Below are positions 2,594 to 29,278 of a stretch of 64,000 nt of DNA, piece by piece. This DNA comes from Arcticibacter tournemirensis (GTDB lineage Bacteria; Bacteroidota; Bacteroidia; Sphingobacteriales; Sphingobacteriaceae): the NCBI RefSeq assembly GCF_006716645.1, contig NZ_VFPL01000001.1, forward strand, positions 2,170,001 to 2,234,000, in the 5' to 3' direction. Made by a program: the position numbers and the translations under genes. How positions within the stretch are numbered: the first letter of the stretch is position 1; every line of letters begins with the position of its first letter. Under the pieces are notes generated by a model. The model saw only the letters and a list, made by a program, of their open reading frames with translations, was not told the origin of the DNA and did no database searches.

Positions 2594-2602
2594 GATTAAG
2601 AG

Positions 2603-4234: not shown

Positions 4235-4268
4235 AAAAAACTAATCATTGATATCTAAAATATATATT

Positions 4269-5402: not shown

Positions 5403-5412
5403 GTTTTGAATA

Positions 5413-5446
5413 AATCTTCCCTGTCTGATCGCAGAGAGGGAAGATT
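5413..5446 (+). terminator. Intra-operon hairpin between susE and GH76 gene
   Basis: AATCTTCCCT...AGGGAAGATT forms a stem of 15 positions with one internal G-G mismatch and an ATCG loop, 11 bases after the susE stop and 15 bases before the GH76 start. There is no long T-run, so it may be an mRNA-processing or attenuation element rather than a full terminator. Confidence 0.6.
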
Positions 5447-5460
5447 CTAAATTTTATATT

Positions 5461-8812: not shown

Positions 8813-11800
8813 ATGATTTTTTATGATCTTTTTAAGCCAAAGCTCTTTGCTTATGGCACTAACCAATTATTGCGTATTATGAAATTAACAATACTCATAA
8901 TGACCACAATACTGATGCAGGTGAGTGCTTCAAGTCTTGCCCAGAAAATTACTTTTTCACAGGGGAAATCTTCTGTTAAAACCGTTTTCAGGGAAATAAC
9001 GAGGCAAACGGGCTTCCAGGTTGTATGCGATGGCAATCTGATCAGGGAAGCGCCATTGAAAGATGTCGACTTTAATCAGGCTTCTATTCAAGATGTACTC
9101 GACACATTCTTTCCGGGGAAGCACTTGAGCTGGACAGTGAAGGAAGAAATCATCATTATCAAGCCGGAAGCAGAACTGAAAAATAGAAAAATTGCAATCC
9201 CGGATAAACAGGTGACTGGTTTGATCAGGGATAATAAAGGCGAAGTATTGCCCGGCGTTTCTGTCTCCGTCAAAGGTAAATCAAACATCGGGACCGCAAC
9301 CGATCTTAACGGACGGTTCGTATTAAGCGTTCCTGAAAACGCTGTACTGGTCTTCTCCATGGTAAGCTTTAAAACGCAGGAGATCCTTGTTGGAGATAAA
9401 ACAGTTATCAATGTAACCATGCAGGATGCGGAGCAATCGCTTGAAGAAGTCGTAGTAACTGCATTCAGTAACCGGCAGAAGAAGAGTGATCTGATAGGGT
9501 CCGTAACTACTGTCTCTCCGAAAGACCTCAAGGTGCCCGGCAGCAACCTCACCACAGCCTTGCAGGGCAGGGTAGCAGGGATGATTGCATTCCAGCGAAG
9601 CGGAGAACCCGGTATGGACAACGCCGATTTCTTCATTCGGGGAATTGGCACTTTTGGCGTCAACCAAAAACCGTTGATCCTGATTGATAATATGGAAGTT
9701 ACTCAGGATCAGCTCGCAAGGATGCCTCCTGACGATATCGCGAGTTTTAGTATCCTTAAAGACGCTACTTCTTCAGCAGTATATGGCTCAAGAGGGGCAA
9801 ATGGAGTAATTATTGTCACTACAAAGCAGGGAGTTCAAGGTCCGGCGAAGATCAGCTTTAGAGCTGAACAGCGTTTCTCTTCTGCCACTCAGAAGCTGGA
9901 AGTTGCTGATCCTGTGAACTTCATGAAAATGAATAATGAAGCGTTGCTAACCCGTGACCCGCTTGCTCTCACGCCTTATTCAGATGAAAAAATAGCCATG
10001 ACAGAGGCAGGGGCCGATCCTATAATGTATCCTGCAGTCGACTGGCTCGGCATGCTCACGAAAGACTATACCACTACTCAAAATTACAGTCTAAGCGTTT
10101 CCGGCGGGAGCAACCTTGCAACCTATGCTGTGAGCGGAAGTCTGACACGCGACAATGGACTGCTTAAGGTAAATCCTATTAATAACTTCAATAACAATGT
10201 TGATTTTAAGACATATAATTTACGCAGTAACATCAATTTCAATCTTACCAGGTCTACCCAACTTATGGTAAGAACAATAGGTAATTTTCAAACATACAGT
10301 GGTCCGCCTATTACCGGGAGCCAGGCGTTTGCGTATGCTATCAGCGCGAATCCGGTCTTGTTCCAACCTATCTATCAGCCGGGGCCCGACCAGTCCTACA
10401 TTAAGCACCCTATGTTTGGAAACTATAATACCGGTAACTACAGAAATCCCTACGCGGAAGTAGTTCGCGGGTACCAGGAACGAAATTCGAATAACATGCA
10501 GGTGCAACTTGAGTTTAAACAAGATCTCTCGGGTATTCTTACAGAGGGCCTTAATTTTCGTTCGCTTGCAAATCTTACCCGCACTTCGGAATACCGGATT
10601 GTAAGGCAGTATAATCCTTATTATTACATGCCTGCCGCGCTTGATCCCCTGACAGGAAATTATACTTACGTTAACCTTAATCCAACCGGAGGAAATGAAG
10701 AATTAAATTTCTCATCTGAGGGCCGCGGGCTTTCAGCCTTGTTCTATATGGAAAATGCTTTTTCGTATAACAGGACCTTTAATGATAAACATGCGGTAAG
10801 CGGAATGGCAATAGCGACCATGCGCAGCAATATAAATCAGCCGAACGGAGACAACTTCACTTTGCTCAATACGCTGCCTTTCAGGAACGTAAGCTTTTCC
10901 GGAAGCTTTACTTATGCGTACGACAGCCGCTACCATTTCCAGTTTGCGTTTGGCTATAACGGGTCAGAACGTTTCGACAACAAATATCGCTGGGGCTTTT
11001 TCCCCTCCGGAGGGGTAGCATGGACAGTAAATCAGGAGAAATTTATGGAGCCATTGAAAGATGTGATAAGCACCCTCAGGTTCAGGTTAACGCATGGCCT
11101 GGTGGGTAATGACGCCATTTCTGATGCACGTTTCTTTTTCCTGTCTGATATAAATCTCAGCGACGGAGACCGCGCCTTTTCATTCGGGACCATCGGAAAC
11201 CTGTATACCCGCAACGGTATATCAACCAACCGATATGCAAATCCAACAGTAAGATGGGAGAAATCAACACAAACCAATCTGGGTATCGACCTGGGGCTTT
11301 TTAACAATGCCTTCAATCTGACAACGGATATATACCGGCAAGACCGGAGTGATATTGTTCAATCCAGGGCGTCGTTGCCTGCCTCATTGGGACTCGCACA
11401 AAATCCCTTGGTGAATATGGGTAAGTATCAAAGTACTGGGGTCGATATGGAAGCAACTTACGATCACTCAGTAAACAGAGATTTGTGGTTTCAGGGAAGA
11501 GGTACATTTACATATTCCAGAGGAAAATATGAACAGTATGAAGAGCCCTATTACGAGTATCCGTACCTAAGCCGGCTTGGACTCGCATCCAGCCAGAGAC
11601 GCGGTTATATAGCAGAGCGGTTATTTACCGATGACCAGGAAGTATTTAACAGTCCCCGGCAAACGTTCGGAAGCGTGATGGGAGGTGATATTAAATATCT
11701 GGACGTGAATAATGACGGGGTTATTAATTCGGATGACCAGGTTCCTATTGGCTATCCAACAACCCCTCTTATCAACTATGGGTTTGGGCTCTCAACAGGG

Positions 11801-12277
11801 TATAAGAATATCGACTTCTCGTTTTTCTTTTCAGGAGTTGCCGGTACGTCCCTGTTCATTTCGCCGATATCCTCCCAACCAGGGGATGATGTACAGGGGA
11901 TTGCTCCGTTCGGCTCAACGACAGGTCCGAAGGCAGTATTAAAAGAAATTGCCGACAGCCATTGGAGCGAAGAACACCAGGACCCTTATGCCTTCTGGCC
12001 ACGTTTAAGCCCATCGGCTCTCAATAACAACACGCAGTCGAGCACGTACTGGATGAGAAATGGCGCATTTCTGCGGCTTAAGCAGGCAGAGGTAGGATAT
12101 ACTCTGAATCAGCAACTTACCCGGCGTCTTCATATTGAACGGTTCAGGATATACGCAAGTGCTACCAACCTGTTTAAGTTTAGCTCTTTCGATTTATGGG
12201 ACCCTGAAATGGGGGGGAACGGACTCGCTTATCCCTTGCAAAGAGTCTTTAACCTTGGCGTTTTTCTAACCCTTTAA
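8813..12277 (+). CDS. SusC-like TonB-dependent receptor with N-terminal STN signalling domain
   Basis: 1154 residues. The long N-terminus (MIFYDLFKPKLFAYGT, then MKLTILIMTT) is usual for FecR-coupled receptors, so the ATG at 8813 is preferred over the Met23 codon. Domains in order: signal peptide to about 43 (SSLAQ); STN domain about 45-120 (TFSQGKSSVKTVFREITRQTGF); carboxypeptidase regulatory-like domain about 131-208; TonB box-like LEEVVVTAF near 212; plug (ALQGRVAGMIAFQ, DATSSAVYGSRGANGVIIVTT); and a beta-barrel to the C-terminal phenylalanine-rich strand. The STN domain should signal ligand occupancy to the FecR protein encoded just upstream. Its susD partner starts 4 bases after the stop. 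The cargo is not visible from the sequence. Confidence 0.95.
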   Translation: MIFYDLFKPKLFAYGTNQLLRIMKLTILIMTTILMQVSASSLAQKITFSQGKSSVKTVFREITRQTGFQVVCDGNLIREAPLKDVDFNQASIQDVLDTFFPGKHLSWTVKEEIIIIKPEAELKNRKIAIPDKQVTGLIRDNKGEVLPGVSVSVKGKSNIGTATDLNGRFVLSVPENAVLVFSMVSFKTQEILVGDKTVINVTMQDAEQSLEEVVVTAFSNRQKKSDLIGSVTTVSPKDLKVPGSNLTTALQGRVAGMIAFQRSGEPGMDNADFFIRGIGTFGVNQKPLILIDNMEVTQDQLARMPPDDIASFSILKDATSSAVYGSRGANGVIIVTTKQGVQGPAKISFRAEQRFSSATQKLEVADPVNFMKMNNEALLTRDPLALTPYSDEKIAMTEAGADPIMYPAVDWLGMLTKDYTTTQNYSLSVSGGSNLATYAVSGSLTRDNGLLKVNPINNFNNNVDFKTYNLRSNINFNLTRSTQLMVRTIGNFQTYSGPPITGSQAFAYAISANPVLFQPIYQPGPDQSYIKHPMFGNYNTGNYRNPYAEVVRGYQERNSNNMQVQLEFKQDLSGILTEGLNFRSLANLTRTSEYRIVRQYNPYYYMPAALDPLTGNYTYVNLNPTGGNEELNFSSEGRGLSALFYMENAFSYNRTFNDKHAVSGMAIATMRSNINQPNGDNFTLLNTLPFRNVSFSGSFTYAYDSRYHFQFAFGYNGSERFDNKYRWGFFPSGGVAWTVNQEKFMEPLKDVISTLRFRLTHGLVGNDAISDARFFFLSDINLSDGDRAFSFGTIGNLYTRNGISTNRYANPTVRWEKSTQTNLGIDLGLFNNAFNLTTDIYRQDRSDIVQSRASLPASLGLAQNPLVNMGKYQSTGVDMEATYDHSVNRDLWFQGRGTFTYSRGKYEQYEEPYYEYPYLSRLGLASSQRRGYIAERLFTDDQEVFNSPRQTFGSVMGGDIKYLDVNNDGVINSDDQVPIGYPTTPLINYGFGLSTGYKNIDFSFFFSGVAGTSLFISPISSQPGDDVQGIAPFGSTTGPKAVLKEIADSHWSEEHQDPYAFWPRLSPSALNNNTQSSTYWMRNGAFLRLKQAEVGYTLNQQLTRRLHIERFRIYASATNLFKFSSFDLWDPEMGGNGLAYPLQRVFNLGVFLTL

Positions 12278-12281
12278 AACG

Positions 12282-14216
12282 ATGATGATGAAAAGAATAA
12301 TAAGTATTATAGCCATATTAATCTCCGTTTGCACCTCTTCATGCAATAAATACATGGATATTGTGCCGGATAACGTTCCTGAGCTGGATAACGCTTTTGC
12401 AACACGGATCATCGCCGAACGGTATTTATTTACGTGTTACAGTTATCTCCCCGGCGGATTTGATCTTCAGTCGAATCCTGCATTGTTGGGAGGCGATGAG
12501 TTTTGGCTCAATTCTACCGCTAATTTCGGGGAAGGAAGCTACGGAAACTGGTATATCGCCAGGGGGAACCAAAATGTGAATTCTCCCCTGAATAATTACT
12601 GGGAAGGCAGCAACCAGGCAAAAAACCTTTGGAGAGGAATACGGGATTGCAATATTTTTCTTGCGAATGTCTATAAGGTACCGGATATGGATGATCTGGA
12701 AAAAGACAGGTGGAGAGCGGAGGCCCTGTTCTTAAAAGCGTATTATCATTATTATTTACTGAGAATGTATGGACCGGTTCATATTATGGACGACGAAGTT
12801 CCGGTCTTTTCCGACCCGGAAAAAACACAGTATGAAAGAAGGCCCGTTGATGAATGCATGGATTATATCGTCGGTTTGGTAGATAGCGCTATTGTAAATC
12901 TTCCGGATGATATCACTGCAACCGCACAGGAAAACGGGCGGCTAAGCAAACTTGTAGCATATGCTATGAAAGCCGAAATGCTGGTTACTGCTGCCAGTCC
13001 GCTTTTTAACGGTAACACAGACTATCCGGGTTTTGTAAACTCAGAGAACAAGCCGTTTATTAATCCTGTTTTTAGTTCTGAGAAATGGGTAAAAGCTGCA
13101 GACGCCTGTAAATTAGCGGTAGAGTTTGCTGAAACTTATGGTCGCACATTATATAAATGGAAGCCGACATTAAATCTTACCACACCTCCTCAGCAGAGCA
13201 CCATTAATCAAATGAGTTACAGGGAGGCTCTTGCCCAAAGGGATAATAATTCTGAGCAGATCTGGATAAACAACGTTTCCAGGGCTACGCAGGGCTTTCA
13301 GGCAGCAGCTACTGTAAGAAGTTACGATCCTGCCTACGTCGACAACAAAACACTGACGGGATATCTCTCTCCCACTATAAATGTAGCTTTGCTGTATTAT
13401 AGTAAAAACGGTGTGCCGATTGATGAAGATCTTACCTATGATTATGGCGCCCGGTTCAATCTGCGCGCTGTGCCCACAGGTACTTCGCCATATATGTATA
13501 ACATGATTCCCGGACATACTACAGTGGGTATGCATTTCGATAGAGAGGACCGTTTTTATGCATCTTTATCATTTGATGGCGGAAGATATTTTATGAGCAG
13601 TCATACCAGCGATGCAAATGCATTTAATACGGTGTATCGTTCTGGAGGAAATGCCGCACCCGTCAGTATCGCCTATTATTCTATCACGGGTTATACCCCC
13701 AAAAAACTGGTAAGCTACAGAAATGTTGTCGGATCTTCTGATGCCTATACAGTTTACGAATATCCATATCCTATCATGCGCCTTGCAGAACTGTATCTTC
13801 TTTACGCTGAAGCACAGAATGAAGCTTCGGGCCCATCGGAAGAAGTTTATAACGCGATTGATAAGGTGAGGGCCCGCAGTGGCCTAAGTGGTGTGGTCGA
13901 TTCCTGGGCTGGTTATTCCAGGAACCCCGGAAAACCAGCTACAAAAGAGGGCTTAAGGGAAATCATCCGTAGGGAAAGAACAATTGAACTGATGTTTGAA
14001 GGGAAACGTTTCTGGGACCTGAGAAGATGGAAAACTGCAACACTAGAGCTCAATGCGAACATCCTGGGATGGGGCATCAGGGAAAAGGAAACACAACTAT
14101 TCTATCGTTCTGTAAGTCTTTATAACCGCACTTTCGCACAGAAGGACTATCTATGGCCGCTTAGCCTGTCGGAGCTTCGGCGGAATTCTAAATTAACTCA
14201 AAATCCAGGTTGGTAA
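12282..14216 (+). CDS. SusD-like surface glycan-binding lipoprotein
   Basis: 644 residues, at the long end for SusD. The lipobox is at Cys21 (CTSSCNKY). SusD hallmarks are ALFLKAYYHYYLLRMYGPVH, REIIRRERTIELMFEGKRFWDLRRWK and the C-terminal KLTQNPGW. It starts 4 bases after the STN-type susC, so translation is probably coupled. It should form the lid of that receptor on the cell surface. Confidence 0.95.
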   Translation: MMMKRIISIIAILISVCTSSCNKYMDIVPDNVPELDNAFATRIIAERYLFTCYSYLPGGFDLQSNPALLGGDEFWLNSTANFGEGSYGNWYIARGNQNVNSPLNNYWEGSNQAKNLWRGIRDCNIFLANVYKVPDMDDLEKDRWRAEALFLKAYYHYYLLRMYGPVHIMDDEVPVFSDPEKTQYERRPVDECMDYIVGLVDSAIVNLPDDITATAQENGRLSKLVAYAMKAEMLVTAASPLFNGNTDYPGFVNSENKPFINPVFSSEKWVKAADACKLAVEFAETYGRTLYKWKPTLNLTTPPQQSTINQMSYREALAQRDNNSEQIWINNVSRATQGFQAAATVRSYDPAYVDNKTLTGYLSPTINVALLYYSKNGVPIDEDLTYDYGARFNLRAVPTGTSPYMYNMIPGHTTVGMHFDREDRFYASLSFDGGRYFMSSHTSDANAFNTVYRSGGNAAPVSIAYYSITGYTPKKLVSYRNVVGSSDAYTVYEYPYPIMRLAELYLLYAEAQNEASGPSEEVYNAIDKVRARSGLSGVVDSWAGYSRNPGKPATKEGLREIIRRERTIELMFEGKRFWDLRRWKTATLELNANILGWGIREKETQLFYRSVSLYNRTFAQKDYLWPLSLSELRRNSKLTQNPGW

Positions 14217-14235: not shown

Positions 14236-15459
14236 ATGAGAATCATATTAAAAAAATATCAGCTGTTACTCTTTGTGCTGCTGCTATCTATATCTGCCTG
14301 CAAGGATGCCCTCGACCCTGAACCGATCAGGAAAGGGGATATTCCCGGGGTAGTCGAAAATTTCAGCTCAAAGGAAATCCCCGGAGGCGCCATTATTACT
14401 TACGATGTCCCCGAAGGCAGCGACCTTCGATATGTTAAAGCCAGTTACGAGCTCAGCGACGGAACAGCGCGCGAGTCGAAGTCTACCGTTTACAAAAATA
14501 CAATCACCGTTGAAGGGTTTGCGCAGGCCGGAGAATACGATATTTCGTTAACTGCTGTCGCTGTAGGTGAAGTAGAATCAAAACCGGTCATTATCCGTGT
14601 ATCGGTGGGAACGCCGCCACATGTCATGGTCGCTGCCAGTATCGCGAACGAGGATAATTTTTATGCAACGTTTGGTGGTATAAATATAGACTACACGAAC
14701 ACTGCGGAAGGAAATATAGTGATTAAGGTGATGGCAAAAGACTCTCTGGATAAATGGCAGGAGATCGGTGCCGAATATACCAGGGCAAAAAAAGGAAGGG
14801 TAAGGGTGCGCGGACTGGATACCATTGAGTATACGTTCGGAGTGTACGTTCGCGACCGCTGGAATAATAAATCAGATACTATTATAAAGAAGTTAACCCC
14901 CTTGTTTGAAAGTGAGTTTGATAAGGCTTTATTCAGACATGTAAAACTACCCGGCGATACATGGGAAAGACATACCGGGCAAGGGAGAGCGAGGGAGTTA
15001 CCGGTTCTTTGGAACGGGCTGCATAATCAGCTTGGTGATATATTTCAAACGAAGCCCTCCACTGTAATACCCCAGCATTTCACCTGGGATATGGGAGTGA
15101 AAGCAAGGTTAAGCCGGTTTATTTTCTATCCCGATATTCCTGCGAGTCAAAACAACGTCTATATGGGCGGTCAGCCTTCTGTATGGGAGTTATGGGGAAG
15201 TAACAACCCGAATCCTGATGGAACGTTTGATGCCAGCTGGACGCTTGTGGGAACATTTCATGCGACAAAGCCATCAGGCTTACCTCTCGGACAAGTGAGC
15301 GCAGACGACATTGCACTCGCAAGAAAAGGCGAAGACTTTGAGGTGGAAGGAAAGGTGGAAGCTTTCCGGTACTGGAGATGGAGAACGATTGCTAACTGGG
15401 GAAATGTCACCTATGTCGCAATGTCAGAGTTTACATTTTTCGGGGCAATAGAAGAATAA
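14236..15459 (+). CDS. DUF4959/DUF5126/DUF5000-type surface lipoprotein
   Basis: 407 residues, lipoprotein signal with Cys22 (SISACKDAL). The N-terminal ~100 residues (PGVVENFSSKEIPGGAIITYDVPEGSDLRYVKA) resemble DUF4959, the middle part resembles DUF5126, and the last ~150 residues (FTWDMGVKARLSRFIFYPD, PSVWELWGS, EAFRYWRWRTIANW) resemble DUF5000, an F5/8C-like galactose-binding fold. This architecture is common immediately after susCD pairs and is read as a surface glycan-binding protein. It is co-directional with 19 and 21 base gaps on either side. Domain names are recalled by eye. Confidence 0.75.
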   Translation: MRIILKKYQLLLFVLLLSISACKDALDPEPIRKGDIPGVVENFSSKEIPGGAIITYDVPEGSDLRYVKASYELSDGTARESKSTVYKNTITVEGFAQAGEYDISLTAVAVGEVESKPVIIRVSVGTPPHVMVAASIANEDNFYATFGGINIDYTNTAEGNIVIKVMAKDSLDKWQEIGAEYTRAKKGRVRVRGLDTIEYTFGVYVRDRWNNKSDTIIKKLTPLFESEFDKALFRHVKLPGDTWERHTGQGRARELPVLWNGLHNQLGDIFQTKPSTVIPQHFTWDMGVKARLSRFIFYPDIPASQNNVYMGGQPSVWELWGSNNPNPDGTFDASWTLVGTFHATKPSGLPLGQVSADDIALARKGEDFEVEGKVEAFRYWRWRTIANWGNVTYVAMSEFTFFGAIEE

Positions 15460-15480
15460 TAGAAACCATAGATCTGATCA

Positions 15481-16173
15481 ATGATGAAAAAAACAATAAA
15501 ATTGTTATTACCCCTTACATTCTTTTTGATATTGGTAATAGCAGCATGTCTGCCCAACGATGGCGATTATAGTGCTTATCTCGATAAGGCTGAAGCCATA
15601 TACCCCGGCCGGCCCGATTCTGTTATTGTTATGCCTGGTTATAACAGGGCTAACATAAATGCATTAATGAGTACCGATCCGAGGGCTGTAAAGATTCGCC
15701 TGTACTGGAATAGCCGCCGGGATTCACTCGACGCGGTGATATCAAAGGATGAAATCGCTAATCGTAAAATAATCCAGGTACCCAACATTCCCGAAGGCGT
15801 GTATACTTTCGAGCTTGTAACTTTTGATAAAAGTGGCAATAAGTCGGTTGTCACGGAAAAAACCGGACAAGTCCTCGGGCCTGTTTATGTAAAGGGACTG
15901 GCAAATCGTATCGTAAAAAGTAAAGTCAGTATCACCGGAAGTCCTGCCATTATTTGGTATTCAGAAACAGATACCTCTTCTGTTATGGCCGGTACAGAGG
16001 TTGCTTATAAATTAAGTTCCGGAGATTCTGCCCGCATCTTCACCTCAAAAAGGAGAGATACTACTATCCTGAAGAATGCCGCGGCTGGTGGAAAATTAAT
16101 TCTACGAACAGCATATCTTCCCCCAAATGCGATAGATACTTTTTACGCAAAAAGAGATACTATTGCATATTAA
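15481..16173 (+). CDS. DUF4998-type lipoprotein
   Basis: 230 residues with a lipoprotein signal (VIAACLPND, Cys23). Motifs such as YPGRPDSVIVMPGYNRANI, KIRLYWNSRRDSLDAVI and GVYTFELVTFDKSGNKS match the DUF4998 proteins that accompany DUF4959 proteins in SusCD operons: Ig-like beta modules with no known catalytic residues. It is probably surface-located and glycan-associated. It is followed after 41 bases by the FAD-dependent oxidoreductase. Confidence 0.7.
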   Translation: MMKKTIKLLLPLTFFLILVIAACLPNDGDYSAYLDKAEAIYPGRPDSVIVMPGYNRANINALMSTDPRAVKIRLYWNSRRDSLDAVISKDEIANRKIIQVPNIPEGVYTFELVTFDKSGNKSVVTEKTGQVLGPVYVKGLANRIVKSKVSITGSPAIIWYSETDTSSVMAGTEVAYKLSSGDSARIFTSKRRDTTILKNAAAGGKLILRTAYLPPNAIDTFYAKRDTIAY

Positions 16174-16214: not shown

Positions 16215-18200
16215 ATGAAACACACACTTTTTTTTCTGCTTCTTTTATTCACCTTTAGGGCTGCGGCCCAACCTAAAATTATTCAAACAGATATCTGCGT
16301 TTATGGTGGTACATCGGCTGGCGTTATAGCGGCCTATACGGCCAAAAAGATGAATAAATCGGTCCTGTTGATAGAGCCGGGGAAGCGCCTTGGCGGCTTG
16401 TCTTCCGGAGGACTTGGTTTTACCGATATCGGAAATAAGTCGATCGTTACAGGTGTAGCGCGCGATTTTTACCGTCAGGTGGGTAAGCATTACGGAAAGT
16501 TTGAACAATGGGTATTTGAGCCGAAGGTGGCAGAAGCGGTTTTTAAGGAATATGTAACAAAAGCCGCTTTGCCGGTTATTTATCAGAAACGGGTAATTAA
16601 AGTCAAAAAGACGGGACAGCGTATTGACGAGATCCTACTTGAAGATGCCTCGGGTCGAGGCACCAAAGCCATGATTGTCAGAGCGAAGATGTTTATCGAT
16701 TGCTCTTATGAGGGCGACCTGATGGCACGGGCCGGGGTTTCCTATACGTATGGAAGAGAAGCGAACTCGCAGTATAACGAAAGCATCAACGGGGTACAGA
16801 TGAAGAATAAGCATCAGTTTCCTGATGGGATAGATCCTTACAAGGTTCCCGGAATGCCCGAAAGCGGTTTGCTGTGGGGAGTAAGCGCTGAGCCTTTGGC
16901 TCCTGAAGGTTCGGGTGACAAAAAGATCCAGGCGTATAACTTCAGGATCTGCCTTACAAGCGATCCGGCAAACAGGGTTCCTGTCACAAGGCCGGTTAAT
17001 TATGATTCTACCAAATACGAGCTCCTGCTCAGGTATATCGAATTTGCCAAACCGAAGGAAGTTGCCGGCAGCGTTCTGAAGTTCGATCACATGCCCAACC
17101 GCAAGGTCGACATTAACAATCAGGGTCCCTTTTCGACGGATATGATCGGCATGAACTATGATTATCCCGATGCAGATTACGCAAGGCGGAATATTATATT
17201 TAAAGCACACGAAACCTATAATAAGGGCTTATTATACTTTCTCGGAAACGATCTGCGTGTTCCTGAGCATTTGCGGAAAGATATGCTGAAATGGGGATAC
17301 CCAAAGGATGAATATACAGATAACGGCCACTGGACACCTCAGCTGTACGTTCGCGAAGCCCGAAGGATGGTGAGCGATTATGTAATGACGGAGGCGAACT
17401 GTCTGGGGAAAGTGGAAACGCCGGACGCCGTAGGTGCTGCCGCTTATACAATGGATTCGCATAATGCACAGCGCTTAGTTGTAAACGGAATGGTTAAAAA
17501 TGAAGGCGACGTACAGCACAAAGTACCTGCACCATATCCGGTATCCTACCGGTCAATTGTACCAAAAGCCGGAGAATGTGCGAACCTTCTGGTGCCGGTT
17601 TGCCTTTCAGCAAGCCATATCGCCTACGGATCAATAAGGATGGAACCTGTTTTTATGGTCTTAGGCCAGTCAGCAGCAACGGCGGCCTCCATGGCGATTG
17701 ATACCCGCAAGCCCGTACAAAAGATCGATGTAAGTCAGTTGCAGGCCTTACTGAAAACGAAGCCTCTCGCGGATAACAGCCCGGCCGACATCCTGGTCGA
17801 TAATGATGATAAGGACTATGTCGAAATAACCGGTAACTGGCAAAAGGCAGGCGGAGGCTACGGCCCTTCTATGCTCATAGACAGCACCGGTTCTGGTGCA
17901 GCTATCAAATTCTTCCCGTTAATAAAGTCGCCGGGTAAATATCACGTATACACTTATATTACAAAGGTCAAGGGGCTCGCCAGTCTGATTAACTACACGA
18001 TCTATGACGGAACAAATAGTAAGTCCGTTGAACTGGATCCCCGCAAGGTAAATGTAAGCGGACAAACGTCCGGCGAGTGGACATCGTTAGGTGTTTTTGA
18101 TCTCAAAGAAGGAAAGAATGCTTATATAGAAATAAGCAATCATAAAAAAGCGAATGAAAATACAATAGCCGACGCTATCCTGATTGTTCCTGAACATTGA
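16215..18200 (+). CDS. Secreted FAD-dependent oxidoreductase with C-terminal Golvesin/xanthan-lyase-type domain
   Basis: 661 residues with a signal peptide (to about residue 18, RAAAQ). The N-terminal Rossmann segment ICVYGGTSAGVIAAYTAKK followed by VLLIEPGKRLGGLSSGG is the FAD-binding signature of the PF12831 family. YEGDLMARAGVSYTYGRE and the late SIRMEPVFMVLGQSAATAA region complete the FAD fold to about residue 520. The last ~130 residues (DILVDNDDKDYVEITGNWQKA ... GKYHVYTYI ... NTIADAILIV) form a separate beta domain of the Golvesin/Xly CBD-like type, possibly carbohydrate-binding. These enzymes recur in PULs but their substrate is not established; oxidation of a sugar or deoxysugar is an inference. 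It lies in the operon with the SGNH hydrolase 12 bases downstream. Confidence 0.82.
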   Translation: MKHTLFFLLLLFTFRAAAQPKIIQTDICVYGGTSAGVIAAYTAKKMNKSVLLIEPGKRLGGLSSGGLGFTDIGNKSIVTGVARDFYRQVGKHYGKFEQWVFEPKVAEAVFKEYVTKAALPVIYQKRVIKVKKTGQRIDEILLEDASGRGTKAMIVRAKMFIDCSYEGDLMARAGVSYTYGREANSQYNESINGVQMKNKHQFPDGIDPYKVPGMPESGLLWGVSAEPLAPEGSGDKKIQAYNFRICLTSDPANRVPVTRPVNYDSTKYELLLRYIEFAKPKEVAGSVLKFDHMPNRKVDINNQGPFSTDMIGMNYDYPDADYARRNIIFKAHETYNKGLLYFLGNDLRVPEHLRKDMLKWGYPKDEYTDNGHWTPQLYVREARRMVSDYVMTEANCLGKVETPDAVGAAAYTMDSHNAQRLVVNGMVKNEGDVQHKVPAPYPVSYRSIVPKAGECANLLVPVCLSASHIAYGSIRMEPVFMVLGQSAATAASMAIDTRKPVQKIDVSQLQALLKTKPLADNSPADILVDNDDKDYVEITGNWQKAGGGYGPSMLIDSTGSGAAIKFFPLIKSPGKYHVYTYITKVKGLASLINYTIYDGTNSKSVELDPRKVNVSGQTSGEWTSLGVFDLKEGKNAYIEISNHKKANENTIADAILIVPEH

Positions 18201-18212
18201 TAGAAATTACAG

Positions 18213-18968
18213 ATGCAAAGAAGACAAGTATTAAAAAGCATATTGACATCGGCAGCGGGTATCGCGGTCCTCAAAGCCGGGGCGTCAACCATTGAGGAAA
18301 TATCAACCGGGTTTGTTTCGCAACCGGAAACGAATGAGCCGGTCGTTATCAATTCGGGCGTCGGTGGTAACAATACCGTCGATCTGTTAAACCGGATAGA
18401 GAAGGATTGCTACGCTCATAAGCCGAAGCTCACCGTTCTGATGATTGGAACAAATGATATGAACAGCAGGAAGTACGTTCCGCTTGACCAATATGAAAAG
18501 AATCTCTCTCAGATTATTACCGGTATTAAGGATAAAGGAAGCAAAGTTTTATTGATGACTATTCTTCCGTTCTATGAACCTTATTTGATGACGCGGCATC
18601 CCGCGGCTTTTTACGAGCCGGAAGGACCTGTAAAACGGAGGGCACAGGTTATCGAAGTGATAAAACGGGCGGCAAAAAAGCATAAAACACACCTTCTCGA
18701 TCTGGGTATGCGGTTTGAAGCTGTTGGAAAGATAGGCACAGACAAAGACTCGCTTATAAAAAATGAAGCGAATAGCAACAAGACCGACGGGCTTCATCCA
18801 ACCGCCAATGGTTACCGGTTTATTGGCCTTTCGGTCTATGATTATATCCTATATCATGACCTTCCTAAAACGAATATCGTTTGCTTTGGCGACAGTATCA
18901 CCCACGGTGATGGGCCGGTCGAAAGCTATCCTGGCTATTTAAAAAGATTGCTGAGCAGTTCCAAATAG
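18213..18968 (+). CDS. SGNH/GDSL-type hydrolase with circularly permuted motif order
   Basis: 251 residues, with a twin-arginine-like signal (MQRRQVLKSILTSAAG). All SGNH blocks are present but in a rotated order: block II region VVINSGVGGNNT (45-54), block III IGTND (78-82), block V DGLHPTANGYRFIG (192-205, Asp192 and His195), and only then block I NIVCFGDSITHGDG (221-234, Ser228 as nucleophile), with YPGYLKRLL at the extreme C-terminus. In ordinary SGNH enzymes block I is N-terminal and leads straight into block II, so joining this C-terminus to residue ~43 would restore the normal order. It is likely a periplasmic carbohydrate esterase or acyl hydrolase, judging from the operon. The frame is intact and the spacing to neighbours is normal, so an assembly error is unlikely. 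Confidence 0.85.
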   Translation: MQRRQVLKSILTSAAGIAVLKAGASTIEEISTGFVSQPETNEPVVINSGVGGNNTVDLLNRIEKDCYAHKPKLTVLMIGTNDMNSRKYVPLDQYEKNLSQIITGIKDKGSKVLLMTILPFYEPYLMTRHPAAFYEPEGPVKRRAQVIEVIKRAAKKHKTHLLDLGMRFEAVGKIGTDKDSLIKNEANSNKTDGLHPTANGYRFIGLSVYDYILYHDLPKTNIVCFGDSITHGDGPVESYPGYLKRLLSSSK

Positions 18969-19220: not shown

Positions 19221-21950
19221 GTGAATAGATACCATTCAGTACTACTGTTTTTATTTCTTTTGGTTCGTGCAAGTCTTAATGCGCAGACAAGCGCCTCGCT
19301 TAGCAACGCTTCCTCCGAAAACTCTATCTTCCTGAGGTCTCAAAAAGGCTTTAACGGAAAGTTCGAATGGAAAATTAGAAAAGCGGGGGACGTAAAGGGC
19401 GGAGGCGCTGTATTGTCAAAAGCTGACTACAGAAGTAATGATTGGTATCCTGCCATTGTACCGGGAACTGTTTTGAATACGCTGGTGAGTAATAAAGTTT
19501 ATCCCGAACCCTATTATGGCGACAATAACCGCAAAGAGAGAAATCTTATCCCGGATATTTCCCAGGCTGGCAGGGACTTCTATAACTACTGGTTCAGAAC
19601 CGAATTTTCGGTTCCCGCAGCTTTTGCAGGCAAGAGGATCTGGCTGAAATTCCACGGGATAAATTACCGTTCGGAAATTTGGCTGAATGGTAAGAAACTG
19701 GGCAATATGGCCGGCATGTTCAATTCACAAAGCTTCGATATCACAGCCATTGCCTCTTTGCAATCAAAAAATGTACTGGCAGTAAATGTCCTTCCGGTCG
19801 ACGTCCCCGGCACAAGCAACCGCGCAAATAACAATCGTCAGGGTGCTGTCGGAGAGAACAAGAATGGGGGAGATGGCGAGATTGGTAAGAATGTCACGAT
19901 GCTGATGAGTGTAGGCTGGGATTTTACATCGCCTGATGGTATCCGGGATCGTAACACCGGAATCTGGAAAGACGTAGAAGTCTACGCCACAGGCGACGTG
20001 CTGCTTGAAAATGCCTTTGTTCAGTCGAAGCTGCCACTTCCTGATACCACCTCTTCGCGCGAAATAGTTTCTGTTGAAGTTGTTAATGCCACTTCAAAAG
20101 CGCAGAAAGGGACGGTTTCAGGCCTGATCAGCGAGAACGGCGTCAGCTTTCAGCAGGCGGTTCATCTTGCCCCTCATGAACGGAAAACGGTGATATTCCG
20201 TCCGGAGCAATACAAACAACTGGTAATTAAAAATCCTAAGCTCTGGTGGCCCGTGAACAAAGGGAAGCCCAATCTCTATACGCTTAACCTGAAATTTGTA
20301 AACGCTGCCAACCAGGTGAGCCACACAGCGAAAACCCGTTTTGGCATCCGGGAAATAAGTTCAGATCAGAATACGCCTGATAAATCCCGGAGGTTTTATG
20401 TCAACGGGCATCCTGTATTCATAAGAGGCACCAACTGGGTTCCCGAGGCGATGCTGCGTAATACAGAAAAACGTACCTATACCGAATTGAGATATACGCG
20501 GCAGGCCGGCATTAACCTGATCCGCTTATGGGGCGGCGGCATTGCCGAGTCGGACTATTTTTACCAGCTGTGTGATGAACTGGGACTGATGGTTTGGTCG
20601 GAATTCTGGATCACCGGAGACACCCGGTTCCCCGTCGACACCGCTCTGTATTTTAAGAATCTTGAAAATACTATCAAGAGAATTCGCTCACACGCATCTT
20701 CGGCCTATTATGTTTCGGCGAACGAGTCGACCGAGCTGAAGGGTGCCGGAGAGTTGATCCACCGCCTTGACAGTACAATTGGCTATCAGGTGCAAAGTGA
20801 GTGCTGCGGAATCCATGATGGCAGTCCCTATAAATACGAAAACCCTATGCAGTATTTTGAGAATACCGCATCTCCGCGAGGCAGCAGGGTAGATGGATTT
20901 AATCCTGAATATGGGGCACCTTGTTTGCCAACCCTCGAGTCCCTTCAGGAAATGATGCCTGCAAAAGACTTATGGCCGGCCAATGATACCGTATGGAACT
21001 ACCTGGACGGCGGAGGCTTTCACCAGATAACGACTAAATATCGCCAGGCGGTAGAAGAATTCGGAAAATCTTCGTCTATTGCCGAGTATGCGCGTAAAGC
21101 GCAATTGGTGGGTGCGCTGAACTTCAGGGCTATCTGGGAGGTATGGAATTATAACAAGTTTAACTACGGCGACCGTTTTGCCTCCGGGTTTTTATTCTGG
21201 TATCATAACAGTCCGCTGCCCCAGACAGGCAGCCGCCTGTACGACTGGTCGCTTGAACCAACAGCAGCTCTGTATTACTCTCAGAATGGATTGGCCCCTC
21301 TGCACCCGCAATTTGATTACTTAAAGAATACGGTATCCGTGTATAACGATTATCGCCTCGCTTTCAGTAAGTATAGTGTGGAGGCTACTGTATATGATCT
21401 GAACTCGAAGGCGGTCTTTAACCAGTCGAAGGTTATCGACATCCCTTCAGACGGCGTAGTAAATGACGCCCTTAAGATTGATTTTCCGGATAACATATCG
21501 CAGGTTCACTTTATTAAGCTGCAATTGAAAGATGCTGCCGGGAAGGTTGTAAGCGATGCTTTTTACTGGCGCTCGAAAGATCAGTATAAAGGCGCATGGA
21601 CAATAACCGGTCCGGCTGTTTCTGGATTTTCGGATATTAATAAACTGCCGGCTACTGAATTGAAAATAAAGGCAGGTGCCAGAAAGGCTGCCGGTAAATC
21701 GCTGATTGATGTTACCATCTCCAATTCGGGCAATGCACTTGCATTCTTTACCCGTTTAAAGCTTAAGGATGCAAAAGGCGCTATCGTAAAGCCTGCTTTT
21801 TATAGCGATAACTTTTTCTCCCTGTTGCCGGGTGAGTCGAAAACCGTTACAATTGAAATTCCTGCCGACTCTTTTGCCGGCAAGCAAGTAGATGTGGTAA
21901 CAGAGGGCTTTAATACCACCGGGATGACGATCCGTGTTACCTTAAACTAA
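19221..21950 (+). CDS. GH2 glycoside hydrolase (beta-mannosidase / exo-beta-glucosaminidase-like)
   Basis: 909 residues, GTG start, signal peptide to about residue 22 (ASLNAQ). A GH2 sugar-binding jelly roll (YWFRTEFSVPAAFAGKRIWLKFHGINY) is followed by the immunoglobulin-like domain and a TIM barrel beginning near FIRGTNWVPEAMLRNTE. The acid/base is expected at Glu502 (SANESTE) and the nucleophile at Glu563 (FNPEYGAPCLP). The WVPEAML and LWGGGI segments place it among the beta-mannosidase/CsxA-like GH2 branch rather than LacZ. A C-terminal beta domain follows from about 790. In a mannan/N-glycan locus, cleavage of the core Man-beta-1,4-GlcNAc or of a beta-glucosaminide is plausible but unproven. 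It has its own 252-base upstream gap and no LacI-type operator there. Confidence 0.85.
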   Translation: MNRYHSVLLFLFLLVRASLNAQTSASLSNASSENSIFLRSQKGFNGKFEWKIRKAGDVKGGGAVLSKADYRSNDWYPAIVPGTVLNTLVSNKVYPEPYYGDNNRKERNLIPDISQAGRDFYNYWFRTEFSVPAAFAGKRIWLKFHGINYRSEIWLNGKKLGNMAGMFNSQSFDITAIASLQSKNVLAVNVLPVDVPGTSNRANNNRQGAVGENKNGGDGEIGKNVTMLMSVGWDFTSPDGIRDRNTGIWKDVEVYATGDVLLENAFVQSKLPLPDTTSSREIVSVEVVNATSKAQKGTVSGLISENGVSFQQAVHLAPHERKTVIFRPEQYKQLVIKNPKLWWPVNKGKPNLYTLNLKFVNAANQVSHTAKTRFGIREISSDQNTPDKSRRFYVNGHPVFIRGTNWVPEAMLRNTEKRTYTELRYTRQAGINLIRLWGGGIAESDYFYQLCDELGLMVWSEFWITGDTRFPVDTALYFKNLENTIKRIRSHASSAYYVSANESTELKGAGELIHRLDSTIGYQVQSECCGIHDGSPYKYENPMQYFENTASPRGSRVDGFNPEYGAPCLPTLESLQEMMPAKDLWPANDTVWNYLDGGGFHQITTKYRQAVEEFGKSSSIAEYARKAQLVGALNFRAIWEVWNYNKFNYGDRFASGFLFWYHNSPLPQTGSRLYDWSLEPTAALYYSQNGLAPLHPQFDYLKNTVSVYNDYRLAFSKYSVEATVYDLNSKAVFNQSKVIDIPSDGVVNDALKIDFPDNISQVHFIKLQLKDAAGKVVSDAFYWRSKDQYKGAWTITGPAVSGFSDINKLPATELKIKAGARKAAGKSLIDVTISNSGNALAFFTRLKLKDAKGAIVKPAFYSDNFFSLLPGESKTVTIEIPADSFAGKQVDVVTEGFNTTGMTIRVTLN

Positions 21951-22402: not shown

Positions 22403-23347
22403 ATGGCAATCATACAAGGCAAATATTTAAGGGGAAGCGTAGGGAATTACGCATTCCGCAAGGTCGGCAACCGCAACATTATACAATCTAAGCCAGGCCG
22501 GGGCACGGTCCGTCAAACGGAGGCCACGCGGGAGAGCAGCGCCGAGTTTGGTCTGGCCAGTACAGCAGGCAAGATGCTTCGGTATGCCTTTGGGAACCTG
22601 TACGGGTATGAGTATGATGGCAGGATGATGAACAGGATGGTCAGAACACTTACCGAAGTGATCGGCAAGGACGACAGGCCTCGGGGACAAAGGGAGATCA
22701 CCGGCGGAGATATCAGCAGGCTGAAGGGCTTCGAGTTCAATGCGGCGGCCCCTCTGCGCAACCAGTGGAAGCTGACACCGGAGGTGGGGATGGATGAAAA
22801 GGGAACGATCCGGGTGAGCTTTCCGTCGTTCGCGTATCTAAAAGACCTGACGCCATCCTCCAGTTGCAGCTATTGCATCATCAAGGCCCAGGTGATCGCC
22901 TTCGACTTTAAGAACAGCCGGTACAAGAGCCTTGGAGAAGAGAAGCTGGAAGTGAAACTGATTACCGGGCGTCAGGAGGCCACCGAATGGACGTTTGAGT
23001 CGGACGTACCGGAAGGATGTTTACTTCTGGTGGGGTTCTCTCTGAAATACTACCGGAACAATAACGGGATCCTGGAGATCGTACAGGACCGTTCAAAACA
23101 CAGTTCAACAGAGATCATCGGGAGCTTTATCCGTGCTGATCGGGAAACGCCGTATGAGGAACCACCGCAGATCATCCGGGTATCCAAATACGAATCATGG
23201 GCACCGGATTCAGGCTGGCGAAAGGTCGGGTTAAACAGCAAGGCCTATAACAAGCTGCAAAGGCAAAGGCTGAAACAGGCAAAGGGGAAGAGCCCAACAG
23301 TGGCGAAGGAGAAGACAAAGGATAAGGATGGCTGGACGAAGATGTAA
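22403..23347 (+). CDS. Protein of unknown function (orphan between two PUL segments)
   Basis: 314 residues; not confidently recognised. There is no signal peptide or membrane helix. The N-terminus (GKYLRGSVGNYAFRKVGNRNIIQSKPGRG, then RQTEATRESSAEFGLAS) resembles in layout the short-start, glycine-rich N-termini of DUF6266-type proteins found in many copies in Sphingobacteria, but I cannot claim membership. The middle is beta-rich and the last ~35 residues are very basic (KLQRQRLKQAKGK ... KEKTKDKDGWTKM). It stands alone, with 452 and 379 bases of non-coding DNA on either side and hairpins upstream. It has no obvious role in glycan use and may be an insertion into the locus. Confidence 0.7.
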   Translation: MAIIQGKYLRGSVGNYAFRKVGNRNIIQSKPGRGTVRQTEATRESSAEFGLASTAGKMLRYAFGNLYGYEYDGRMMNRMVRTLTEVIGKDDRPRGQREITGGDISRLKGFEFNAAAPLRNQWKLTPEVGMDEKGTIRVSFPSFAYLKDLTPSSSCSYCIIKAQVIAFDFKNSRYKSLGEEKLEVKLITGRQEATEWTFESDVPEGCLLLVGFSLKYYRNNNGILEIVQDRSKHSSTEIIGSFIRADRETPYEEPPQIIRVSKYESWAPDSGWRKVGLNSKAYNKLQRQRLKQAKGKSPTVAKEKTKDKDGWTKM

Positions 23348-23627
23348 TTTTGCCACGGGCTGCTATCTGTAAAGTACTGACTTACATTCGGAACCAGAAC
23401 GCTGAATAAAATGGATCTTTTGCAGATACACGAAGGTACAAAAGTCTTATCGGGAAGCTTCAGTTGCAAACTGAAAACAGCAACACATTATTGACACGTA
23501 TAATGAAAGGCTAAGTAGCTTATAGTTTTATAAAAAGTAAAGAGTACCAGGTAATTTGTACCACTTGTTATGTATCAGTTTAGCTAACCATGAAATCACC
23601 CGGTTCGGCGTCTGAATTTTCTTTTTT
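23348..23627. other. Gene-free stretch before the ricin-LacZ promoter
   Basis: It contains no credible reading frame. The only visible structure is a short 7-bp inverted repeat TTCAGTT/AACTGAA near 23460. The promoter and operator for the downstream gene begin at 23628. Confidence 0.6.
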
Positions 23628-23658
23628 TTTGCTAAATCGATTGGGTGGGCTATATTTG
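23628..23658 (+). promoter_or_regulatory. Promoter with LacI-type operator for the ricin-LacZ gene
   Basis: TTTG (23628-23631), 19-base spacer, TATATTTG (23651-23658), an exact TAnnTTTG box. The spacer starts with the operator half GCTAAATCGATT (23631-23642), so a bound repressor would cover the promoter. The start codon is 68 bases beyond the -7 box. Confidence 0.75.
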
Positions 23659-23720
23659 TTTGAACTGCAGGTGTAGAGATGGGTGCTGTGTTTCAGGGAG
23701 TTATCCGCAGGGGATTATAG

Positions 23721-27311
<3,591 letters not shown>

Positions 27312-27456
27312 TATGCAAAAGACTGGTGACAATTAATCAAAGGAAGGATAGATATAACGGATAGTTCTTATTGCCACATCATCAAACTCTTGTTGAGGCG
27401 TATCACCTTTACTTCCAGTTTTTTAGACCAGGATTGTAAAATTTTGGATTCAATAG

Positions 27457-27487
27457 TTTGCTAAAACAATTTAGTTATGTATGTTTG
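27457..27487 (+). promoter_or_regulatory. Promoter with LacI-type operator upstream of GH125
   Basis: TTTG (27457-27460), 19-base spacer, TATGTTTG (27480-27487), an exact TAnnTTTG box. The operator GCTAAAACAATTTAG (27460-27474) fills the spacer. The coding start is 226 bases downstream of the -7 box, so the leader is long. Confidence 0.65.
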
Positions 27488-27518
27488 GTTATGGCATTTA
27501 TTAGAATGCCATAACCAA
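27485..27518. repeat. Perfect 14-bp inverted repeat at the predicted GH125 transcription start
   Basis: TTGGTTATGGCATT (27485-27498) pairs with AATGCCATAACCAA (27505-27518), loop TATTAG. It overlaps the end of the -7 box. It could be a second operator, a 5' mRNA hairpin, or the terminator of the preceding LacZ gene. Confidence 0.6.
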
Positions 27519-27554
27519 TTTAGATTAAACTGTTTTATTAATTATTTGATGAAA

Positions 27555-27562
27555 TACATTTG
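27555..27562 (+). promoter_or_regulatory. Possible second -7 box upstream of GH125
   Basis: TACATTTG is an exact TAnnTTTG match, with a T-rich stretch (TTTT at 27533-27536) 18 bases upstream as a weak -33. A 36-codon open frame at 27580-27690 follows but has no recognisable content. The remainder of the 27312-27713 gap shows nothing else. Confidence 0.35.
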
Positions 27563-27713
27563 GAGGGTAACAAAAAGGGATGGCTCGCACGAGTAGCAGA
27601 CAGTACTACCTGGACAGGAAGCGTATTACCGGCGATATGCACGGACAGGCTCCTGTTCTTTGGTGTGCCTTTGCTCTGTTAAATTAACTAGCTAACACAT
27701 TGATAGAATATAT

Positions 27714-29135
27714 ATGAAAAGAAGAACCTTTATTAAGAGCGCAGGGGCATTAGGTGCCGGGTTTGTTCTAAGCAACAATTTTGCTTTTGCTACTCCGCCT
27801 GCATTTCCAGTGGTAAGAACTGCTCCGGCATCCAGGAAGTTCACCAGTAAAGCAGTTGAAAAAGCTATCGCTGAATTTAAAAAGAATGTAAAGAATGAGG
27901 AGCTGGGCTGGTTGTTTGAGAACTGCTTCCCAAATACGCTCGATACTACCGTTTTTCCGGAGGTTAACAATGGAGTGCCTGATACATACGTAATTACAGG
28001 AGATATTGATGCGATGTGGATGCGCGACAGTACGGCACAGGTTTGGCCATATATGCAGTTTATAAAACAGGATAAACCACTTCAGCAGCTGATAGCTGGG
28101 GTAATTAACCGCCAGGTGACATATATCCTCAAAGATCCTTATGCTAATGCCTTTTATCATGATCCCAATAAGAAAGGGGAATGGTCTACCGATCATACCG
28201 ACATGAAACCCGGTGTTCATGAAAGGAAATGGGAGATCGACTCTCTTTGTTATCCTATCCGGCTTGGATATCACTACTGGAAAAGCAGCGGCGACACGAA
28301 ACCGTTCGGTGAACAATGGCAGGCCGCTATTAAGGCGATACTGAAGACCTTCAAAGAGCAACAGAAAAAAGAGAATAAAGGACCGTATAAATTTCAGCGC
28401 AGTACGCCGAAGGCGTCGGATACACAGCCGATGGCCGGATATGGCTTTCCTGTAAAACCAGTTGGACTGATTTGTTCTGCATTCAGGCCGAGTGATGATG
28501 CGACGTTATACCAGTTTCTGATACCGTCCAATTTCTTTGCAGTGGTAAGTCTTAAAGAAGCTGCAGAAATGATGGAGGCGATAGCTAAAGACAGCAAAAC
28601 TGCCGGCGAATTAACAGCGCTTGCTACTGAAGTTGAACAGGCATTAAAGCTTTATGCGACGGCCGACCACAAAAAGTATGGTAAGATATATGCATTCGAG
28701 GTTGACGGATACGGGAATCAGCTCTTTATGGATGATGCAAACGTGCCAAGTCTGATGTCGTTACCTTATTTGAAGGCCGTCGAAACCAGCGATGCAGTTT
28801 ATCAGAATACGCGCAAGTTTATCTGGTCGGAAGATAACCCTTACTTCTACAAAGGAACAGCAGGAGAAGGATATGGCGGTCCGCACGTGGAAAGAGATGG
28901 CATGATCTGGCCTTTGAGTATTATCATCTATGGTCTTACCAGCACCGATGACGCAGAGATTAAGCGTTGTGTGGAAGTGCTGAGGACGACGCACGGAGGT
29001 ACAGGTTTTATGCATGAGACGTTCTTTAAAGACGATCCGAAGAATTTCACCCGTTCATGGTTTGCATGGGCCAACACTATTTTTGGTGAGTTCTTATGGA
29101 AAACGTATAAAGAAAGACCTCACTTGCTTGTCTGA
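27714..29135 (+). CDS. GH125 exo-alpha-1,6-mannosidase
   Basis: 473 residues with a twin-arginine-like signal (MKRRTFIKSAGALGAG, cleavage near ANNFAFA). Family GH125 signatures: ITGDIDAMWMRDSTAQVWPY (~95-113), HERKWEIDSLCYPIRLGY (169-186; Asp176 aligns with the general acid), the conserved IPSNFFAVVSL segment, and GGPHVERDGMIWPLS near the C-terminus, which likely carries the base. The enzyme removes terminal alpha-1,6-linked mannose by inversion without a metal, in the periplasm. It complements the GH76 endo-mannanase and the GH92 exo-mannosidases of the locus. A hairpin separates it from the LacI gene that follows. Confidence 0.93.
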   Translation: MKRRTFIKSAGALGAGFVLSNNFAFATPPAFPVVRTAPASRKFTSKAVEKAIAEFKKNVKNEELGWLFENCFPNTLDTTVFPEVNNGVPDTYVITGDIDAMWMRDSTAQVWPYMQFIKQDKPLQQLIAGVINRQVTYILKDPYANAFYHDPNKKGEWSTDHTDMKPGVHERKWEIDSLCYPIRLGYHYWKSSGDTKPFGEQWQAAIKAILKTFKEQQKKENKGPYKFQRSTPKASDTQPMAGYGFPVKPVGLICSAFRPSDDATLYQFLIPSNFFAVVSLKEAAEMMEAIAKDSKTAGELTALATEVEQALKLYATADHKKYGKIYAFEVDGYGNQLFMDDANVPSLMSLPYLKAVETSDAVYQNTRKFIWSEDNPYFYKGTAGEGYGGPHVERDGMIWPLSIIIYGLTSTDDAEIKRCVEVLRTTHGGTGFMHETFFKDDPKNFTRSWFAWANTIFGEFLWKTYKERPHLLV

Positions 29136-29183
29136 TTTAACGGAAACGGTGAATGTTGATTCATAAATGGCAGTCCGATTTGC

Positions 29184-29224
29184 ATCACAGCGATGCACCA
29201 TAAGCTAAGGGGCATCGCTGTGAT
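29184..29224 (+). terminator. Hairpin between GH125 and the LacI-family gene
   Basis: ATCACAGCGATGC (29184-29196) pairs perfectly with 29212-29224 across a 15-base loop. There is no T-run. It is likely the 3' end of the GH125 transcript. Confidence 0.6.
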
Positions 29225-29250
29225 ATTGATAAAGAATAACTATTAAATAT

Positions 29251-29277
29251 TATATTTGGACTCCATTAAATCGTTAA
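29251..29277 (+). promoter_or_regulatory. Promoter and possible autoregulatory operator of the LacI-family gene
   Basis: TATATTTG (29251-29258) is an exact -7 box, with TTG at 29226-29228 as a possible -33 (22-base spacer). Between it and the GTG start lies TTAAATCGTTAA (29266-29277), the CG-centred core of the operator seen elsewhere in the window but lacking the GC flank. The predicted leader is only ~14 bases. Confidence 0.5.
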
Positions 29278-29278
29278 A

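Follow-up and report, generated by a model that had tools for sequence, protein, structure and literature searches.

Support for a natural circular permutation in a predicted exported SGNH hydrolase of Arcticibacter tournemirensis and its relatives in Bacteroidota

The locus and its features

The window, that is the whole stretch of 64,000 nucleotides of A. tournemirensis that was analysed, carries a locus that begins with genes for a sigma factor, FecR, SusC, SusD, a DUF4959-DUF5126-DUF5000 protein, a DUF4998 protein and a FAD_oxidored-Golvesin_C protein, continues with the gene considered here, which encodes a predicted SGNH hydrolase with permuted block order, and goes on with GH2, a 314-aa ORF without any Pfam match (22403-23347), a LacZ-type GH2 with a ricin domain, GH125 and LacI. 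The relevant features are the following:

8813-14216, + strand: SusC/SusD pair of the same locus.
14236-16173, + strand: DUF4959-DUF5126-DUF5000 protein and DUF4998 protein.
16215-18200, + strand: FAD_oxidored (PF12831) and Golvesin_C protein, the conserved partner, ending 12 bases upstream of the permuted gene.
18213-18968, + strand: gene of the permuted SGNH hydrolase, translated into 251 aa plus stop, block order II-III-V-I.
18213-18302, + strand: Tat-like signal region (MQRRQVLKSILTSAAGIAVLKAGAS...) at the new N-terminus, read from the sequence, with an approximate end; pLDDT <50 at residues 4-17.
18357-18377, + strand: block II GVGGNNT (residues 49-55, translation) with the oxyanion-hole Gly49, invariant in the 48-row alignment described below.
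18447-18458, + strand: block III GTND (residues 79-82, translation) with the oxyanion-hole Asn81, invariant in the 48 rows.
18786-18797, + strand: block V DGLH (residues 192-195, translation) with the triad residues Asp192 and His195, both invariant in the 48 rows.
18855-18875, + strand: joint of seven residues (215-221) from the old C-terminal helix (198-214) to the old first strand, placed by the secondary structure of the model and the rotation optimum at 208-219.
18876-18914, + strand: old strand beta-1 (222-226) and block I FGDSITHGDG (225-234) with the nucleophile Ser228, from translation, rotation scan and model; Ser228 invariant in the 48 rows.
18927-18959, + strand: old helix A (239-249), ending at the cut that precedes block II, from the AlphaFold2 model.
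19221-21950, + strand: GH2 enzyme with exo-beta-glucosaminidase/mannosidase-like domains (Pfam).

The LacZ-type GH2 with its ricin lectin domain, GH125 and the LacI regulator lie nearby, within 22403-30292; upstream, at 2-6624, there is a second SusC/SusD/SusE set with GH76.

Block order of the window protein

An initial annotation, made from the letters of the sequence, had described the protein as a naturally circularly permuted SGNH hydrolase, and translation places GVGGNNT, GTND, DGLH and FGDSITHGDG at the residues that it gave. The Ser, Gly, Asn, His and Asp of blocks I, II, III and V are all present in the 251-aa protein, and their catalytic order is G-N-H-S, with Ser228 near the C-terminus. 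A second block I near the N-terminus, which would have spoken against a permutation, was looked for and is absent from the protein, whose first 40 residues are, by eye, a Tat-like signal and a spacer. The Pfam model Lipase_GDSL_2 (PF13472) matched residues 41-202 with its positions 32-177 of 178 (89 bits, cut-off 32.9); since the match begins at model position 32, positions 1-31, corresponding to block I, are absent in front. The window protein departs from the order I-II-III-V of ordinary Lipase_GDSL_2 proteins, as do 46 further ORFs. In NCBIfam it had no match near the cut-offs (34.7 and 34.8 bits versus 700 and 270).

A family with the same block order

We considered as permuted any Bacteroidota ORF in which a fixed motif pattern, asking for GxND, DxxH and GDS, found block I only behind block V, and as ordinary any ORF in which it found block I only in front; copies identical in their core entered the counts only once. 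This search for the order II-III-V-I among homologues, which the initial annotation had proposed as a check, gave 47 distinct permuted ORFs, the window's included, and 28 ordinary ones in the same set, and no ORF among those classed by the pattern had block I on both sides. Outside the 47 we kept L070, which the pattern missed but which by eye is permuted, and two damaged copies, precisely L061 (genome G285), a permuted ORF broken by an in-frame TAG, and L106/L205 (genome G909), where the permuted copy is reduced to 79 aa and lies beside its FAD_oxidored gene. Outside the 28 are L091 and L092, of ordinary order by eye; the second ORF of L077 is no SGNH protein.

G49, N81, D192, H195 and S228 are invariant in an alignment of 48 rows, one of them the viral sequence L207 described below, and this invariance is partly due to selection, as the pattern asks for GxND, DxxH and GDS. 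The same five residues are carried by L070 and the stop-broken L061, full-length permuted matches which the pattern missed. The earlier claim that all the catalytic residues are kept holds for the translation.

In a genome collection, six of nine loci were full-length in permuted order (L009-L014: Pararcticibacter, Larkinella, Spirosoma), and the other three (L015-L017) were partial matches only. At E <=1e-20, 22 of the 201 genomes in the window's own family carried 23 matches, each of which extends to position 237-240 of the 241-position permuted profile. In the order-wide set, at least 30 matches in at least 29 of 300 genomes reach position 238 or beyond, one of them with an in-frame TAG, and the other rows among the matches listed end at position 222 or earlier. 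Permuted matches are rare phylum-wide (4 of 395 genomes); in two other families they were found in 1 of 92 and 11 of 147 genomes, one of the 11 being a 79-aa fragment. These family, order and phylum sets overlap, hence the counts are not additive. Since many related bacteria keep the reshuffled order, it looks like a real enzyme family rather than a broken gene, and on account of this conserved family the finding is stronger than the initial annotation stated.

In one divergent member (L007, 148-2151; the same gene is in L169) the permuted SGNH domain is preceded, in the same chain, by a long N-terminal part that matches Beta_helix weakly (21.6 bits, cut-off 25.9; E 0.00018).

The start of the window protein, MQRRQVLK, is twin-arginine-like by eye, and the genome has a TatC match of 223 bits. 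By simple patterns, twin-arginine-like starts occur in 21 of the 47 ORFs and lipobox-like ones in 10. On this reading by eye and with a simple pattern, a Tat-like signal at the new N-terminus is plausible. A permuted member without evident signal (L105, 1477-2142) apparently starts MVEIINAGINGNNT (MVEIINAG) at strand beta-2, and its neighbours, seen in L197, resemble sugar dehydrogenase genes by eye. As the signal types differ and L105 has no evident one, the cut, rather than the signal, is the constant feature.

Outside Bacteroidota, none of 9 matching plasmid records and none of 25 matching phage records covered 80% of the query, nor did any of 3 phage records with the L207 domain as query. 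In a scan of IMG/VR at least 15 loci matched, and L207 is the one recognised as permuted among the matches listed. It is a 432-aa ORF (2440-3738) of the viral contig IMGVR_UViG_3300010883_008018 that ends in a permuted SGNH domain of order II-III-V-I (...SKIVCFGDSITYG...), with neighbours that by eye resemble phage tail genes. A second scan found only this contig.

Rotation of the sequence

We built a canonical profile from 27 ordinary-order relatives (L004 was left out) and scored with it every rotation of residues 41-251. For the window protein the maximum was 108.9 bits (single-domain) versus 87.7 bits unrotated, and every rotation with its start at 208-219, a range within or next to the joint of the last helix and the GDS strand, gave at least 108.1 bits. 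When the tail was moved to the front the score went up in all of the 47 ORFs, by 18.3 bits on average (range 7.8-28.1), and in the control, in which the tail was shuffled once, the mean change was +2.1 bits (range 0.8-5.5; 47 ORFs).

Pairwise searches with phmmer gave the swapped order in the three alignments inspected against solved canonical structures: query residues 221-232 matched chain residues 3-14 of 1yzf and 41-206 matched 38-180; for 3p94 the pieces were 220-238 on 23-41 and 46-205 on 50-192; for 7ddy, 220-232 on 24-36 and 38-122 on 55-143. The short pieces are not significant on their own.

Structure model

The AlphaFold2 model had a pLDDT of 74 with 9 sequences and of 89.1, with pTM 0.82, with 48 sequences. 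Its C-terminus consists of a strand (222-226) and two helices (228-231 and 239-249), with a pLDDT of 94-97 in the 10-residue blocks from 221 to 250 and of 78 at the last residue. VIA-align placed model residues 40-216, over which the alpha/beta/alpha SGNH fold was found, on residues 37-190 of 1yzf (target length 195) with Z 17.8, rmsd 2.0 and 154 aligned residues. This leaves 36 residues unpaired at the start of 1yzf and 35 at the end of the model, as expected of a sequential aligner given this permutation. Among the 50 VIA-align rows listed, which report the first and last aligned residues only, the range extends to model residue 251 in four (3mil, 9hi5, 4oap, 4jj6), and the chain range starts before residue 6 in three (1z8h, 1vjg, 8zbc). 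With Foldseek none of the 50 rows listed covers the whole model, and the best query-normalised TM is 0.53.

On the grounds of homology and of model confidence, the C-terminal GDS strand most likely fills the beta-1 slot. The natural circular permutation put forward in the initial annotation is upheld by the rotation scan, by the family with the same order and by the structure comparison; as far as tested, the evidence supports that the window protein is a naturally circularly permuted SGNH hydrolase.

Gene neighbourhood

We considered as main clade any locus with a tblastn score to the window protein >180 bits, which gave 26 main-clade and 18 divergent loci, hence 44 of the 45 loci were counted; in L186 the window protein had no match. 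In 22 of the 26 main-clade loci a FAD_oxidored gene lies on the same strand at a distance of no more than 600 bases, and in 24 there is one somewhere in the fetched stretch; a SusC match is present in 21. These 26 loci are not independent events, since close relatives share ancestry. Among the 18 divergent loci there is one with FAD_oxidored, precisely L205, the main-clade fragment, placed there by its low score. The gene order around the FAD_oxidored/permuted pair varies, with the FAD gene before or after and with or without GH2 or GH76. In the open-access literature on polysaccharide utilization loci, in the parts available, we found no pair of FAD_oxidored and a permuted esterase.

One divergent member (L188, 4820-13319) lies amid amino-sugar genes (amidohydrolase, Glucosamine_iso, LacI, ROK, GlcNAc_2-epim) and may act on an O-acetylated amino sugar.

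Origin of the permutation

With a rotated profile the 23 permuted matches scored 154.5-258.2 bits and the best ordinary-order ORF 112.7 bits, a gap that is partly by construction, as the profile was built from family members; no close ordinary-order relative scored above 112.7 bits in 296 phylum-wide and 201 family genomes (overlapping sets). Two trees were computed, L004 being left out of both and L066, L003 and L094 of the second. Both free trees require two changes of order, with weak deep forks, and in the first tree a single change is found in only 6% of 200 bootstraps. Constraining the permuted rows to one clade gave a log-likelihood 7.8 above that of the free tree and was not rejected (p-AU 0.706). 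The CIGDSLTAG group (L036-L039) lies far from the other permuted rows in the first tree, and L066 is a long permuted outlier ORF, for which the family profile gives no more than 95 bits. Taken from these sequence comparisons, a single origin of the permutation in Bacteroidota is likely.

No tandem-duplicate intermediate was found among the ORFs classed for block order. A looser pattern flagged an extra 'S' before block III in L012 and L104, which we rejected as block I by eye: it was NSLL in an in-frame stretch preceding the start and SDSV directly before block II, respectively. A Met just before block I (L032-L035, L068) had suggested a fossil start codon of an old second copy; we dropped this candidate, as a Met within 7 residues is found in only 7 of the 47 ORFs, which we estimate to be about chance level.

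Proposed mechanism

We propose that a joint of about seven residues closed the ring between the old C-terminal helix and the old first strand, and that the new ends were placed between old helix A and strand beta-2. With block I in the beta-1 position, Ser228 would come to lie next to Asp192/His195 and the oxyanion hole that Gly49 and Asn81 form, and esters would be cleaved by the usual acyl-serine mechanism. The enzyme is presumably exported, and its substrate would be an O-acyl group (most likely acetyl) carried by a glycan that the SusC/D system imports. In the simplest reading, it would be a glycan O-acetylesterase clearing substituents for the FAD oxidoreductase and the glycosidases, with the neighbouring FAD oxidoreductase and GH2 working on the same glycan. 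The protein is probably active as a carbohydrate O-acetylesterase, and for its sugar substrate the neighbouring genes allow no more than a guess. We know of no enzymatic activity for any member of the permuted family.

Alternative explanations

Three alternatives concern the permutation itself. Given that the joint is short, about seven residues, the C-terminal block I could fill the sheet of a second subunit, so that the active site would form only between two chains; against such a swapped dimer, the single-chain model is confident (pTM 0.82) and AlgJ, AlgX and PatB1, in the source sections available, assemble their triad in one chain with block V ahead of block I, and we regard it as very improbable. 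Even more remote, in our judgement, is that the gene is the remnant of a tandem GDSL pair that lost the front of the first copy and the back of the second, leaving an inactive pseudo-enzyme. Tandem duplication is the textbook route to circular permutation, GDSL genes do lie side by side in the same genus (L008), and two relatives are damaged (L061 and L106), but the order is kept in 47 distinct ORFs over several Bacteroidota families, and Ser, Asn, Asp and His were lost in no full-length permuted match looked at; a dead remnant would not be so preserved. A repeated origin of the same permutation within Bacteroidota is unlikely, although less so: the two order changes of both free trees and the distant CIGDSLTAG group speak for it, and against it stand the improved and unrejected likelihood of the one-clade constraint and the fact that ordinary-order sequences score nowhere near the family, albeit with a profile made from family members.

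A weightier alternative, which we consider possible but still not likely, is that the fold is right and the reaction differs from glycan deacetylation, the protein being an acyltransferase or a feruloyl, lactone or lipid esterase. The other known permuted SGNH families are, as far as the accessible source text goes, O-acetyltransferases, and the divergent clades lie outside FAD_oxidored loci, so the family may hold several activities. Deacetylation is favoured by the motifs, which are those of ordinary GDSL hydrolases (GDSI/L, GTND, DGxH), unlike the altered ones of AlgX/PatB1, by the SusC/D and glycosidase genes in the loci and by the nearest solved folds, since acetylxylan and sialate O-acetylesterases occur among the best 50 rows, although thioesterases and lipases are found there too. 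Considering all this, we are largely confident in the reading as a naturally circularly permuted, exported SGNH (GDSL) hydrolase that would cleave esters by the usual acyl-serine route, with a predicted glycan O-acyl substrate and a permutation that likely arose once.

Relation to known systems

The Lipase_GDSL_2 esterases (1yzf, 3p94, Axe2 3w7v/4jko, AlAXEase 7ddy) have the same core and fold from block II to V and the same four motifs, but they start with block I, whereas the window protein has it at the C-terminus. Permuted SGNH folds of order H-S-G-N have been described for AlgJ, AlgX and PatB1, and the available sections of a Glycobiology 2022 review name permutation for the AlgX and DHHW families only (PMC9487903). 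According to such sections, block V comes before block I in AlgJ/AlgX (AlgX family) and PatB1 (DHHW family), as in the window protein, but in those proteins the chain was opened between blocks III and V, and in the window protein between I and II. They are acetyltransferases with an extra cap and strands, and the motifs of AlgX/PatB1 are altered (GTSYS, DxH, Tyr for Asn; KDS, TDHHW), whereas the window protein has the order G-N-H-S with ordinary motifs. This order, and FGDSIT and DGLH instead of GTSYS/DxH or KDS/TDHHW, set it apart from the AlgX and DHHW families. In both types of permutation the old ends seem to have been closed alike, with the ring opened at a different site in each; AlgX-type families were absent among the 50 structure-comparison entries listed, an absence that says nothing about whether they are related.

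PgaB, a circularly permuted CE4 deacetylase in the source text available, is like the window protein a natural permutation among carbohydrate deacetylases. Its fold (CE4) is unrelated to SGNH. As permuted SGNH folds were already known, the finding is somewhat less new than the initial annotation held. In the accessible parts of the open-access literature, a scope that excludes subscription papers and preprints, we found no GDSL hydrolase described as ending with block I; the available portions of a bdelloid rotifer paper (PMC5408684) and of 'Structural outliers' (PMC3779223) do not describe a permuted SGNH domain.

Significance

A broader proposal, which could hold but which we rate as somewhat doubtful as a whole, is that an old single-origin clade with an undescribed I/II cut and a fixed FAD pair acting on one glycan class would constitute a new carbohydrate-esterase family together with a redox-plus-deacylation step, with one copy in a phage tail-region protein. 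With the family, one of the largest esterase folds gains a second natural permutation, which is cut at another place and retains the ordinary catalytic motifs. Since ordered profile models place only the II-V part, permuted proteins can resemble serine-less GDSL enzymes and can be filed as truncated or inactive. The family is a clean natural test of how the fold depends on chain order, and the pairing with a FAD oxidoreductase in SusC/D loci hints at a possible new step of glycan breakdown.
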